NCBI GenBank assembly: GCA_947632625.1
Contig: CANRPZ010000003.1
Span: forward strand, 1-34,412
From: an uncultured Bacilli bacterium
Lineage (GTDB): Bacteria; Bacillota_I; Bacilli_A; RF39; UBA660
Length of the DNA: 34,412 bases
Reading direction: 5' to 3'
Below are positions 4,945-12,272 of this stretch, one piece after another. A program made the translations under genes and the position numbers. How positions within the stretch are numbered: position 1 is the first letter of the stretch; each line of letters opens with the position of its first letter. The notes beneath the pieces were generated by a model. The model had not been told where the DNA came from, ran no database searches, and saw only the letters and a list, made by a program, of their open reading frames with translations.

Positions 4945-6913
4945 TAACAATACAATTAAAAACTTATTCCCTTATTTGGTATTAATAGTAGTTATCTTTT
5001 TTGTATTAACTGTATTAAACTTTGGGGGGACAATAAATCATAGTTTAACAACTGGAGAACTTTTAAGTGAATTAGAAAAAAGTAACGTTACAGAAATTAC
5101 AATTACACCTAAAAGTAATGATTCTGTATATTATATTGAAGGAAAATTAGCAAACTATAAAGAAAAAGAAAGCTTTTCTGCTAAAGTTGTCGAAGAGGAT
5201 TTAACAGAAATAACCAATTATGCTAAAGAACATGATTTAGAGGTTTATGAAACCAATAAAGATCCAGGTTCTATATCTTTAATTTATATAATTGTGAATT
5301 TCTTACCTTTAGTCCTTATTATTGGAGCTTCTTACATTTTAATTACGAAAATGGCTGGAAGCAATAAAAATTCTATGGACTTTGGAAGAAGCCGTGCTAG
5401 ACTATCTGAAGATGGTGGTTCAACTAAATTTAGTGATGTAGCAGGACTTAAAGAAGAAAAAGAAGAGGTTGCTGAACTAATTGATTTCTTAAAAAATCCT
5501 AAAAAATTCCAAAAGTTAGGAGCAAGAATTCCGAAAGGTGTTTTATTAGTTGGTCCTCCAGGAACAGGTAAAACTTTACTTGCAAAAGCAGTTGCAGGAG
5601 AAGCCAATGTACCTTTCTATTACATTAGTGGATCTGATTTTGTGGAATTATTTGTCGGTGTTGGTGCAAGTCGTGTAAGAGATATGTTTAAAGAAGCCAA
5701 AAAGAATGCACCATGTCTAATCTTTATAGATGAAATTGATGCCGTAGGTCGTCAACGTGGAGCAGGTCTTGGTGGAGGTCACGATGAACGTGAACAAACA
5801 TTAAACCAATTGCTTACTGAAATGGATGGATTTGGAGCGAATGAAGGAATTATTATTATTGCTGCAACCAATAGACCGGATGTTTTAGACCCAGCTCTAT
5901 TGAGACCAGGAAGATTTGATAGACAAGTTACTGTTAATTTACCAGATACAAAAGAACGTGAAGCAATTTTAAAAGTTCATGCTAAAAATAAAATTCTTGA
6001 TAAATCAGTAAGTTTAGAAAATGTTAGTGCTAGAACTCCAGGCTTTAGTGGTGCTGATCTTGAAAACTTACTTAACGAAGCCGCTTTACTTGCTGTAAGA
6101 AAAGATGAAGAAGCCATTACAATGGATGATATTGATGAAGCAACGGATCGTGTATTAATGGGTCCAGCCAAAACAAGTCGTAAAATAACAGATAAAGAAA
6201 AGAAACTTGTAAGTATTCATGAATCTGGTCATGCAGTTATAGGTATTAAATTAGAAGATGCCAACGAGGTTCATAAAATAACGATTATTCCACGTGGTAT
6301 GGCTGGTGGTTATACGATGATGCTTCCAAAAGAAGAAAAAATATCTGTTATGACCGAAAAAGAATTACTCGCAACAATTACTGGTTTACTTGGTGGTCGT
6401 GCTGCTGAAGAATTATTTTTAGGAGAAATAACAACTGGAGCAAGCGATGATTTTAAAAAGGCTACCAATATAGCACGTAGTATGGTTTCTGAATATGGTA
6501 TGAGTGAACTTGGTCCAATGCAATACGAACAAAAAAGCGAAGGTGTCTTTTTAGGTAGAGATTATAATAAAACGAAAAATTATTCTGATCAAGTTGCTTT
6601 AGAAATTGATAGAGAGGTTCGTAAAATTATTGAAAACTGTTATAAAGATGCTAAAAGAATTTTAAGTGAAAATGAAGATTTAGTAATGACATTAAGTAAA
6701 GCTTTAATTGAAAAGGAAACGTTAACTAAAGAAGAAATTGAATCACTTGTAACCACTGGTAAAATAGAAGAGAATTTAGAACCTTTGAAAGAAGATGAAC
6801 CTTCCTTACTAAAATTAAGAGAAATTGCTAAAGCTAATAAAATTAAAGGTTATACAAAAATGACCAAAGAAGAATTAGAAGAAGCTATTAAAGATTTAGA
6901 TAGTTTAAAATAA
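4934..6913 (+). CDS. ftsH: ATP-dependent zinc metalloprotease FtsH
   Basis: GPPGTGKT Walker A, SRH region, HESGH zinc motif. Start moved from 4916 to ATG 4934 (RBS AAGGAGG); overlaps the tilS stop. Confidence 0.97.
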
Positions 6914-6928
6914 TCTAAATCTTTTTTT
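6890..6928 (+). terminator. Rho-independent terminator of ftsH, overlapping the stop codon
   Basis: AAAGATTTAGAT (6890-6901)/ATCTAAATCTTT (6913-6924) followed by T run. Confidence 0.75.
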
Positions 6929-6937
6929 CTGATTTAA

Positions 6938-6966
6938 TTGCAAAAGTAAAAAGAGTTTAGTATAAT
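6938..6966 (+). promoter_or_regulatory. Sigma-A-like promoter of the variable surface protein
   Basis: TTGCAA (6938-6943), 17-bp spacer, TATAAT (6961-6966). Confidence 0.7.
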
Positions 6967-6993
6967 TAAATTAACATAGGAGGAAAAAGAATT

Positions 6994-8803
6994 ATGAAGA
7001 AAAGAAATAGAATCCTCCCAACCGAAACTAGCTTCGGGGGGGGGGTTATTAGAAAGTAATAATAAACCAACGGAGCTACAAAGGTATAAGAAAAATACAA
7101 AGCAAAAGAAAATTTTAATTGGAGCAATAGTATTATTTATATTAATCATTGGCGGTATAAAACTATATCGCACTTTTGCATTGTATAAAGAAGAAAAATC
7201 CTTTAATGTATTAAAAGGAATAGTACCGGATTTTGTCGGAGGAGATGTAATACTCGCATTCACTGTAAATAATAAGGAAACAAATCACTTATCTTTCCCA
7301 AATAAAGGAGAAGGATATAAAGTAGATAAAGTAACTTGTGAGAATGATGTAAAAGCAGATTGGAATAACAATTCTTGGAGTCTAGAAATAAAGGATAGTA
7401 ACAAACAAAGAAAAATAAAATGTACAATTAATTTTAATAAGTATCAAGAAAGTATATTAAATGAAGCAGACCCAGTATTAAAAGAAGGATTAGTAGCAGT
7501 AAAAGTTGATAAAGATACAGGTGCAGTAACCAAAGCAGATACAACAAAACAATGGTATAGCTATGAGAATCAAGAATGGGCAAATGCGGTAATACTAACA
7601 AATGGTAAAACAGCAGATAACTACCAAGATAATGACCCGATACCAGAGGCAGATATCGAAAGTTATTTTGTATGGATACCAAAATATAAATATCAAATAT
7701 TCGATATGGGAAATTATACAACGAGAGAAGAAGATAGTAGTTATCAAGATAATGAACAAGCTATAGAAATAAAATTTGGCTTAACGAATACTATAGACGA
7801 TGAGGAAGAATGCATTGCTCCACCAAGTGGAGAGAATGGTACTTGTGCTGTAAATAAATGGATGACGCATCCAGCGTTTACTGCTTTTGATACAAACGGA
7901 ATCTGGGTTGGAAAGTTTAAGACAGGATACAAAGGAGCAAATAGTAAAACCGAAGCTGAACAAGATGGAGATGCATCTAAAATCATCATAAAACCAAATG
8001 AATATAGTTGGAGAGGTATAACTATAGGAATAATGTATCAAAATAGTTTAAATTATAATAAAGATTTAAATAGTCATATGTTAAAAAATACCGAATGGGG
8101 AGCAGTAGCTTATTTAGCCAACTCTATTTATGGACGATGTGACAAAAATACAAAGGAGTGTAGTGAAATACATGTCAATAATAATTCTGATTTTTTAACA
8201 GGTTATGCCGCAAAGCACAAATTTACAATAGGTTTTACTAGTACAAATGAGTCTTGTACAGAGCACTCTGATGCTTGTAATGAATATGGAGGATCAAGCA
8301 AAGGGCAAGACGGAACTTATAACTATCAATATTTTAGTCCAAAAAGTGTTAAGGCAAGTACCACAAATAATTACACTGGTATTTATGATATGAGTGGAGG
8401 TTCATGGGAATACGTAATGGGTGTGATGGTGGATGCAAATGATAATCCAATATATTTAAATAGTGAGTTAAGTGCAGATGATTTAAAAGACGAGAGATAT
8501 TATGATGACTATAAAAATGGTGTCGAATTCCAATATACAAGTCGAATATTAGGAGATGCAACAGGAGAGATGGGACCATTTATTCAAGAACAATATACGG
8601 GAACAACAACTACTGCAGTAGAACAAACTAGAACAATTAGTGGATGGTATCATGATGAAGGTTGGTTTGTCTTGACTGGCAGTCCTTGGTTCCTGCGTGG
8701 TGGCGTTTACGATCACGGGTTTGAGGGCGGTGTTTTCACTTTCGTTCGCGGCGCAGGTGAGGCGTACGCGTACCGTGCTTTTCGCCTTGCTCTTGCCTTT
8801 TAG
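6994..8803 (+). CDS. Membrane-anchored variable surface protein with FGE-sulfatase/C-type-lectin-like C-terminus; out of frame at a G10 tract in this assembly (phase-OFF state or frameshifted)
   Basis: ATG 6994 with RBS ATAGGAGG reads MKKRNRILPTETSFGGGVIRK and stops at 7057. Removing one G joins it to LLESNNKPTELQRYKKNTKQKKILIGAIVLFILIIGGIKLYRTFALYKEEKSFNVLKG... (TM helix), continuous to TAG 8801-8803. The body has no ATG/GTG/TTG upstream of TTG 7181. Confidence 0.8.
7036..7045 (+). repeat. Poly-G tract (G10), candidate phase-variation tract
   Basis: Ten consecutive G, the only such G run seen in the window, inside the 5' coding region of the surface protein. Confidence 0.85.
8661..8803 (+). 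other. Candidate DGR variable repeat (VR) at the 3' end of the surface-protein gene
   Basis: 80/143 G+C and only 12 A versus about 51 T, against an AT-rich, A-rich coding strand elsewhere. Encodes GWFVLTGSPWFLRGGVYDHGFEGGVFTFVRGAGEAYAYRAFRLALAF, with many codons ending in C/T. Confidence 0.65.
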
Positions 8804-8858
8804 TTCAATCAATTAATCCAAACTTTATAAATACTCATATACTATAAAGAGGTGTATT

Positions 8859-9941: not shown

Positions 9942-9961
9942 TCTGATTTTTATCAGGCTAT
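9938..9961. terminator. Bidirectional terminator between convergent genes
   Basis: ATAGTCTGAT/ATCAGGCTAT stem (one G.T pair) with A run on the left; TTTT loop. Confidence 0.6.
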
Positions 9962-11503
9962 TAATTTGGCATGTACAACTAATCTTTCCGTATAATTTGT
10001 ACAAGTTGATAATGTTAAGATTTTATCCCCAGGTTTTACCTCAATATTAAAATCTTCTATGCTTCTTTCTTTAATTAAACTTACAAAATCATTAAAATCT
10101 TCATCAGTTTCAAAATAATTTTGTAGATAATCGGTAGTTTTGGGAACTTTATAAATAGAAAAAATCTGATACTTATGACTTTCGTAAATTGTGTCAAAGG
10201 TAATAATTAAATTTTCTGTATTGCTATACCAACTTTTCTTAAGAGCATTCGATAATGTTCCGAACATAACACTACTATAGTACATAGTATGACCAAATAT
10301 TATTGTATTATCATCCATTTCATAATCATTATTTCGATAATCCATAAAAATCCAACCGTTTTTATCCTCTTCATTATAAAGATTATGTTTTAAATAATAC
10401 TCATTATCTTTGGCTTGGACAACAGGATAGTCAATATTTGTGTCGTTTACTTTAAGCCATCCCACTACATCTGGATTTATAGATAAAATAGATGCAATAT
10501 AATTATTTTTAATTTCTCGTTGGGGATCAATTTCGTCTATTAAAGCAGGTGGCGTTTGATTATCTCGAATCGTTTCCCGAATATTTTCTTGAATTTCATT
10601 AACCTCTTGTAGTGATTTATAATTTGTAATAACAATATATAAAATAATTCCGGAAACGAGTATGACTAAAATTGAACCAATAATTTTTAATGTATTCATC
10701 ATGATTTGAATGAAAAGATTATTATTTAAGTATTCTTTGGAATAGACTAGTTCAATTTTGATTTTATTTTTGCGAATTTTTTTATTTAATTTTTTTAAAT
10801 ATTCAATCGATTTACTATCTTTAATATTAGAATAGATTAAGATTTTAATATTGCGCAAGCGATTATCACATAAAATTTCTAGAATAGTTTCTAAATCTTG
10901 TTTGTTATAAACATCCAAATGAATTGTTTTTAAATATTTGTTAATATTACAAAAAGCTAAAAAGTCATCTTTGTCATCTTCATCTAATAAAGTATCAATA
11001 TGAACATTCATTTTATAAAATATTTTAGAATAACTTGTTAAATTATTGCTTTGCATAAAATGACTAAGGTAAAATAGCTCGGTTCTCGATTCAGAATGAA
11101 TGCCCTTTTTATCTAACATTTCAATCATATAGGATGGAATATGTTCGGCTTCTATGTAGTTAATATTTTTATTTTCTAGAATTTTTTCATATAACTCATA
11201 GGATAGGGGAGCATTTTCTCTTATACATACCGCTGTAATATAAGGATTTTTTCTTAATAAATCTAATATGAAGATTGCAAGTTCATTATTTTCAAATGTA
11301 ACTCGATACACTTTTTTTTCTTGGCATATTTCATTAATAAATAAAGAAACTAGCTTTTCATTATCTAATATATAGTTTGGCGTAAAAATAAGTTCACTAT
11401 CATTAATTATATTAGTGTTTGATAAATTTGGTTTAACCGAAGGGGCATTTTTATATGCAAAAATAAGGGAATCATTGTAAATACTAATTTGAATTTTTTG
11501 CAT
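9953..11503 (-). CDS. Class B-like sortase with about 265-aa N-terminal cytosolic domain before the TM helix
   Basis: C-terminal domain IDYPVVQAKDNEYYLKHNLYNEEDKNGWIFMDYRNN...IIFGHTMYYSSVMFGTL...LTLSTCTNYTERLVVHAKL (His, TLSTC Cys, Arg). TM helix IIGSILVILVSGIILYIVI. Start set at ATG 11503 (RBS AAAGGTGGTG). Confidence 0.88.
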   Translation of the reverse strand: MQKIQISIYNDSLIFAYKNAPSVKPNLSNTNIINDSELIFTPNYILDNEKLVSLFINEICQEKKVYRVTFENNELAIFILDLLRKNPYITAVCIRENAPLSYELYEKILENKNINYIEAEHIPSYMIEMLDKKGIHSESRTELFYLSHFMQSNNLTSYSKIFYKMNVHIDTLLDEDDKDDFLAFCNINKYLKTIHLDVYNKQDLETILEILCDNRLRNIKILIYSNIKDSKSIEYLKKLNKKIRKNKIKIELVYSKEYLNNNLFIQIMMNTLKIIGSILVILVSGIILYIVITNYKSLQEVNEIQENIRETIRDNQTPPALIDEIDPQREIKNNYIASILSINPDVVGWLKVNDTNIDYPVVQAKDNEYYLKHNLYNEEDKNGWIFMDYRNNDYEMDDNTIIFGHTMYYSSVMFGTLSNALKKSWYSNTENLIITFDTIYESHKYQIFSIYKVPKTTDYLQNYFETDEDFNDFVSLIKERSIEDFNIEVKPGDKILTLSTCTNYTERLVVHAKLIA

Positions 11504-11592
11504 AAGTTCACCACCTTTTTTTACTCTTATGATACTATAATAACACAAATTTACACTTTTTTATAAAAAAATGTAGCATTTAGGTATTTTTA

Positions 11593-11601
11593 TGTTATAA
11601 T
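11593..11601 (+). promoter_or_regulatory. Extended -10 promoter (TGTTATAAT)
   Basis: TG (11593-11594), one base, TATAAT (11596-11601), upstream of ATG 11643. Confidence 0.55.
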
Positions 11602-11642
11602 TAAGACATAATAAAAGTAAAGTAGAAAGAGGTAAGAAAAAA

Positions 11643-12272
11643 ATGAAAAGAGTTTTAGGCTTAATCGTTTTAGCAATGATGGTAGTTTTACCAATGAAAG
11701 TAAACGCTGCTTTAGATTTTTCAGGATTTACCTGTGATGATAAAGTTACAGCAGCAGATGGAAGTGTCACAAAGACATGTTATATTACAGGAAAGGCAAC
11801 AAATGGTAGTTCAATTTCAACATTTACTGGAACTTTGACATTACAAAATATGTCAATTAAAACAGTAACAGCAAGTTCTCCTTGGACAAATGAATCAAGT
11901 GGAACAAGTTTGAGATTTACATCACAAACACCTGTATCAAGTTCAAGTTTTACAATTGCAACTATAGTTTTTAGTGTTGATAATACGGCAGAAAAATGTG
12001 CTGTACAATTGATTCCATGCTATGATGAAAGTGGAAACTTTGGTTGCGGTAATGCTGTTGAGGTTACAGAAGAACAATTTTGTAAAGTAGTAGATGGTAC
12101 TTATTATGGTAAAGATGGAAGCGTTGTTACTGCTGATGTTTATAACGCACAATGTGTAACAAATCCACAAACTGGTAATTTTGTACCTTATGTAGTAATC
12201 ATTGCTGGAATTGCTTTAGCTGTAGGTGTATTCGTAATTTCAAGAAAAAATACAAAATTATATAGAATATAG
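11643..12272 (+). CDS. Secreted cell-wall-anchored protein with NPQTG sorting signal
   Basis: Signal peptide MKRVLGLIVLAMMVVLPMKVNAA; C-terminal NPQTGNFVPYVVIIAGIALAVGVFVISRKNTK (sorting motif, hydrophobic helix, positive tail). Confidence 0.85.
   Translation: MKRVLGLIVLAMMVVLPMKVNAALDFSGFTCDDKVTAADGSVTKTCYITGKATNGSSISTFTGTLTLQNMSIKTVTASSPWTNESSGTSLRFTSQTPVSSSSFTIATIVFSVDNTAEKCAVQLIPCYDESGNFGCGNAVEVTEEQFCKVVDGTYYGKDGSVVTADVYNAQCVTNPQTGNFVPYVVIIAGIALAVGVFVISRKNTKLYRI

Follow-up and report, generated by a model that had tools for sequence, protein, structure and literature searches.

The window analysed here, a stretch of 34,412 nucleotides, carries a surface protein gene that we consider, with a probability of about 80%, to belong to a dispersed family of about 26 membrane-anchored proteins of CLec fold that are switched on and off by poly-G slippage and whose tips are rewritten by a single DGR acting in trans. 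According to this model, most members begin with a common leader ending in a poly-G tract, in which slipped-strand replication would add or remove one G and thereby bring the remainder of the coding sequence into or out of frame (9 Gs, ON; 10 or 11, OFF), and one DGR (TR, MSL, Avd and RT on contig C25) would act in trans on several members, the window gene included, to rewrite residues encoded by adenines at their C-terminal tip. Most copies would be OFF at a given time and few ON, such that cells would show different subsets of a hypervariable repertoire. The source genome (G000) is an AT-rich draft of ~1.04 Mb in 91 contigs, of which C3 is the window contig.

The window gene and its poly-G tract

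The interval that the first-pass annotation had singled out as a possible locus of dual diversification (6938-8803) runs, as it turned out, from the -35 box to the stop codon of the window gene on the + strand. A promoter-like site recognised by its match to the consensus (6938-6966; -35 TTGCAA at 6938-6943, 17-nt spacer, -10 TATAAT at 6961-6966) is followed by a Shine-Dalgarno sequence (AGGAGG, 6978-6983) that is kept in other leaders and by an ATG at 6994, which opens the leader MKKRNRILPTETSF (6994-7035), a sequence with homologues in other species. The leader runs into a tract of ten Gs (G10; 7036-7045, codons 14-17), the next longest G run in the window being six. Runs of eight or more Gs occur at only about two dozen places in the whole 1.04 Mb genome, most of them in leader copies, and about 0.07 runs of nine or more would be expected from base composition (assuming P(G) = 0.15).

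With G10, the frame of the ATG at 6994 reads MKKRNRILPTETSFGGGVIRK and then meets a stop, and with 9 or 12 Gs it runs into the main reading frame of the surface protein (7046-8803), which is open from before the tract to the stop at 8803 and extends intact over about 590 codons. We found no ATG, GTG or TTG ahead of the tract in the frame of the downstream ORF of the window gene and thus rejected an alternative in-frame start at G10; together with the frameshift imposed by G10, this means that the assembled copy is OFF. Downstream of the tract, hydrophobicity predicts a transmembrane helix at approximately 7112-7165, basic cytoplasmic side first.

Further along the window (9953-12272) lies a gene for a class B sortase (TIGR03064, above the cut-off) with a long N-terminal extension and, divergent from it, one for a small secreted protein that has an NPQTG-type sorting signal at its end. 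The suggestion that this region forms a surface island holds insofar as sortase and substrate lie close beside the window gene, but the paralogs of the window gene are scattered over dozens of contigs, and the neighbourhood therefore does not define the system.

The leader family and its hairpin

A search for other genes with the same N-terminus plus a poly-G, which the first-pass annotation had proposed as a check, was positive: leader and poly-G are found 22 times in the source genome, one copy (on C78) being decayed. The 12 tracts with both flanks assembled comprise eight G10, three G9 and one G11, three of them ON and nine OFF, these and all other tract lengths being consensus calls in draft MAGs, in which homopolymer lengths can be wrong. 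With 9, 10 and 11 Gs among paralogs at a position that sets the frame, the poly-G signal is real. As in contingency loci, a long homopolymer is found where its length alters the frame or the promoter spacing, and this length differs among copies and relatives. The assembly is fragmented because many other contigs end inside or just past a poly-G tract. Poly-G and VR stand on one contig only for the gene on C3, and we infer the other pairs in the source genome, because contigs break at the tract.

Two different membrane-anchor families stand behind the leader, and the family members on C43 and C45 have plain 5' ends without poly-G. Other poly-Gs lie in or before genes for an Ig-like-repeat surface protein, an acyltransferase, a duplicated membrane protein and a DegT-like product (named from the translations by inspection); to judge from these tracts, poly-G contingency is a general feature of the source genome. 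At two places on C29 (L138), tandem near-identical membrane protein genes each carry a G11 about 250 nt past the start and are OFF as assembled. On the minus strand of C4 (L139, C4:25488), a G10 occupies the 18-nt spacer of a promoter (TTGACA..TATAAT) ahead of an Ig-like-repeat surface protein gene. Almost every genome of the genus, G000 among them, has a full-length MutS, and loss of mismatch repair was rejected on this ground as the cause of the long tracts.

The family is widespread among uncultured gut Bacilli. Among 80 loci of relatives we counted 49 tracts of seven or more Gs, mostly at the starts of family genes, with two placements: the coding leader, or the spacer that separates a -35 (TTGACA/T) from the -10 box. 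Tract lengths among relatives run from G7 to G12. The coding tracts in 26 targets of named MAGs are G10 in 22 cases, and all would be ON at 9; the promoter tracts are G10 in 12 of 16, the same mode (p = 0.45). This equality of modal length between promoter and coding tracts fits a mutational equilibrium like that of Campylobacter jejuni, whose tracts are mainly G9 and G10 (PMC8355987). In several promoter-type poly-G genes (L199, L204, L210, L218, L231, L235 and L258), a conserved GTGGTYTAAAATAAT-like motif lies directly upstream of TTGACA and may serve as a regulator site or as an upstream element.

The leaders share CCTCCCAACC, including a C-rich arm that is complementary to the poly-G (CCTCCC, 7014-7019 in the window) and that is kept in 46 of the 46 leaders listed, a few times as CCTCTC or CCTCCT. 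CTC accounts for 2 of 619 leucine codons (0.3%) in the housekeeping genes of the window, yet is conserved in the leaders. In predicted folds the C-rich motif pairs with the poly-G, such that the tract is also the 3' arm of a hairpin, with an inner stem, variable from one species to another, that closes on the first Gs (CCGAA/TTCGG in the window, 7022-7037, closing on the first two). The inner stem covaries across species: when the 5' and 3' inner arms were re-paired at random, a set as stable was obtained in 0 of 2000 trials for 16 cores and again in 0 of 2000 for 12 classes, from which it follows that the hairpin is conserved as a structure. It adjoins a slippery homopolymer, as hairpins do at slippage sites. 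An Rfam search of the leader returned no known RNA element. Sequestration of the Shine-Dalgarno sequence by the CCUCC arm looked possible by eye and was rejected, because in the predicted minimum-energy folds it is the poly-G with which CCUCCC pairs.

Such a hairpin would either affect replication slippage or act as a nascent-RNA hairpin that stimulates transcriptional slippage, nascent-RNA hairpins having been proposed to promote forward RNA realignment on a slippery template (PMC5009743). A wider proposal, to which we give somewhat less than even odds, is that the leader (Shine-Dalgarno, ATG, C-rich arm, inner stem and poly-G) is a portable switch cassette placed before different membrane-protein families, the C-rich arm pairing with the G tract in several registers and setting switching rate or leakiness through slippage in replication or transcription. 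Combined with a DGR acting in trans, this cassette would make up a two-tier antigen-repertoire system in gut Bacilli, in which slippage picks the members shown and retrohoming rewrites what they bind.

The DGR and its targets

Searching the source genome with the window protein yielded about 26 paralog ends, nearly all at contig ends and 25 of them at E < 1e-60, and their alignment displays a common core and a hypervariable tip. The first-pass annotation had pictured one gene with a poly-G switch at the 5' end and DGR hypervariation at the 3' end; both signals hold, but they belong to one member of a large family and not to a single special gene. Pfam and NCBIfam models gave no match to the window protein, nor did a sequence-profile search of the PDB, and a fold comparison was needed. 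The AlphaFold model from 7178 on has a mean pLDDT of 82, and Foldseek against the PDB ranked the DGR variable protein TaqVP (5vf4, E 2e-7) first, followed by formylglycine-generating enzymes (FGE) and Mtd. On this model, the C-terminal domain (7640-8800), which ends in the VR, is an FGE-type C-type-lectin fold, and fold and membrane anchor together suggest that the protein would be displayed at the surface and bind there.

The only RVT_1 match in the genome lies on C25, which carries a complete DGR: the end of a target (C25:2-433), an Asn-rich TR (C25:616-754) and then MSL, Avd and RT. The RT, about 1 kb downstream of the TR, matches RVT_1 (E 7e-16) and the PHROG reverse transcriptase family phrog_1423 (E 7e-114), has an IGNYTSQ motif and an intact frame, and is probably active; an NCBIfam search with it gave no DGR-specific match. 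Avd is recognised by bAvd (PF22296, E 2.5e-23) and by the PHROG family 'Avd protein of DGR', and MSL is a MutS_I protein (E 6e-11). Ungapped comparison of the window VR (8662-8800) with the TR on C25 revealed changes at 21 of 32 TR adenines and at 3 of 107 other positions (Fisher p = 4.9e-14). An RT near the TR, differences concentrated at adenines, an Avd/accessory gene and a VR at the 3' end of a target with CLec/FGE fold are thus found together, and the predicted hypervariation at the 3' end of the window gene is supported at the sequence level by its A-specific VR/TR differences and by the complete DGR elsewhere in the genome.

At non-A positions, seven paralogous VRs (on C3, C59, C10, C24, C25, C76 and C22) match the TR at 92-99% identity while carrying changes at 36-66% of the As; these VRs, the window VR among them, look recently rewritten. 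The remaining VRs are more diverged, several of them no longer recognisable as copies of the C25 TR. We rejected a phage origin, as positions 6900-8830 of the window were unmatched in 50,697 phage records.

Poly-G and DGR are also combined in a second species of the same genus (G015, CANROY01; L342), where a single contig has a poly-G (G10, OFF), target, VR, TR, MSL, Avd and RT; its cis VR differs from the TR at 11 of 29 As and at 0 of 107 other positions. In G015, a TTG without Shine-Dalgarno sequence lies 16 nt upstream of the tract, in frame at G10, and may allow leaky initiation. In G027, a promoter poly-G precedes the target next to the DGR, and the RT is frameshifted; ungapped comparison did not recognise a TR/VR pair there. 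Target families are present in G003, G010 and G011, in which RT and MSL are both missing. RT is absent also from G007, which keeps MSL by itself, and from G012, where MutS_I is represented by a weak fragment at most, and several such relatives have large families. Because G010 and G011 carry poly-G leaders without RT or MSL, the poly-G is independent of the DGR, and the two are evidently separable, relatives keeping poly-G families without a detectable RT.

The lone MSL of G007 (L356, G007:C22), which has no TR, Avd or RT beside it, is apparently a DGR remnant, and near it lies an unrelated surface protein gene with a G9 tract. At L320, L322, L352 and L354, the DGR RT genes of several relatives are frameshifted or broken and Avd is open, which could reflect decay or draft errors. 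MSL itself carries a poly-G at L324:797 (G033; G8, out of frame, ON at G9) and at L353:5130 (G027; G11), and the diversification machinery may thus be phase-variable in some species.

Alternative explanations and known systems

As the main effect of the tract we favour DNA phase variation, which would switch members within a population, with leakage by transcriptional slippage as a live rival. If such slippage were productive, the G10 gene would not be OFF at all: the nascent leader hairpin, positioned immediately upstream of the RNA-DNA hybrid, would help RNA polymerase to slip on the tract, some mRNAs would be one G shorter and in frame, and the tract would be a recoding site instead of, or besides, a genetic switch. 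A conserved, covarying hairpin that abuts and includes the tract speaks for this possibility, as do the 22 of 26 coding tracts in relatives that have the ON length plus one G and the stimulation of forward realignment proposed for nascent-RNA hairpins (PMC5009743). We consider it unlikely, since the modal length is no different in promoter poly-Gs, which do not affect a reading frame, and copies within one genome differ in tract length from 9 to 11, the two observations on which our preference for DNA phase variation rests, and since there are poly-G genes without a hairpin (L230, L236, L270 and the C20 acyltransferase).

The repertoire could also be phase-variable with a dying DGR that touched a few members in the past, the paralogs owing their variation chiefly to duplication and recombination. 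In favour of this reading, roughly half of the VRs depart from the TR at many non-A positions, the cis VR is the only one in G015 that closely resembles the TR, and RT is missing or frameshifted in several relatives; yet the seven VRs close to the TR, with high non-A identity and many changed As, require recent mutagenic homing, and the RT frame is intact in the source genome, making a dying DGR rather improbable. That the window gene is a decayed pseudogene whose poly-G length is an assembly error is very improbable indeed: the frame as assembled is disrupted, repeats of this kind interrupt contigs and the leader copy on C78 has decayed, but the downstream frame of the window gene is intact over its ~590 codons and common to about 26 paralogs, G9 and G10 copies stand side by side in the genome and the same design is found in several species.

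Multi-target DGRs and poly-G contingency loci are each well known. The DGR of Bordetella phage BPP-1 is phage-borne and has a single target, Mtd, and we know of no homopolymer switch in it; mutagenic homing into a CLec-fold receptor-binding protein is common to that system and ours, and Mtd is among our fold matches. DGRs with cellular surface targets (Legionella LdtA, Treponema denticola TvpA, Thermus TaqVP and the multi-target Thiohalocapsa PB-PSB1, with nine loci and 15 targets; PMC10907252) likewise have A-specific TR/VR differences, RT, Avd, an MSL-type accessory gene, a C-terminal CLec-fold domain and several targets per genome, whereas here about 26 dispersed paralogs face a single RT and most stand behind one common poly-G leader. 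In the open-access papers searched, we found no poly-G switch on DGR targets and no report combining a DGR with homopolymer or simple-sequence phase variation, though an unseen report is possible.

The poly-G contingency loci of Campylobacter, Neisseria and Helicobacter (PMC8355987; PMC6321876) resemble the present ones in that G9 or G10 stands near the start of a surface-related gene or in a promoter spacer, each genome has several genes of this kind, and frame or spacing sets expression; unlike those, the present loci are in gut Bacilli with MutS, belong to a DGR-target family and have a poly-G that is an arm of a conserved hairpin. Hairpin-mediated transcriptional slippage in a Roseiflexus IS (reviewed in PMC5009743) also involves a hairpin directly upstream of a slippery homopolymer, and realignment could restore the frame in both, but here the 3' arm of the hairpin contains the homopolymer, the tract length is genetically variable and the slippage site is a candidate by sequence.

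DGRs and homopolymer phase variation rank among the best-known routes to fast, targeted gene mutation in bacteria. With one mechanism at each end of a single protein family, in gut genomes that are very small, the choice of what is expressed and the specificity of binding could vary independently. It becomes testable why a commensal with a minimal genome keeps about 26 genes of this kind, whether the majority of copies are kept silent and whether transcription of the target is required for DGR homing, with the relatives that have poly-G families and in which RT was undetected as a natural comparison. As a cis-element that might tune slippage, the hairpin built on the poly-G is a concrete and testable candidate.
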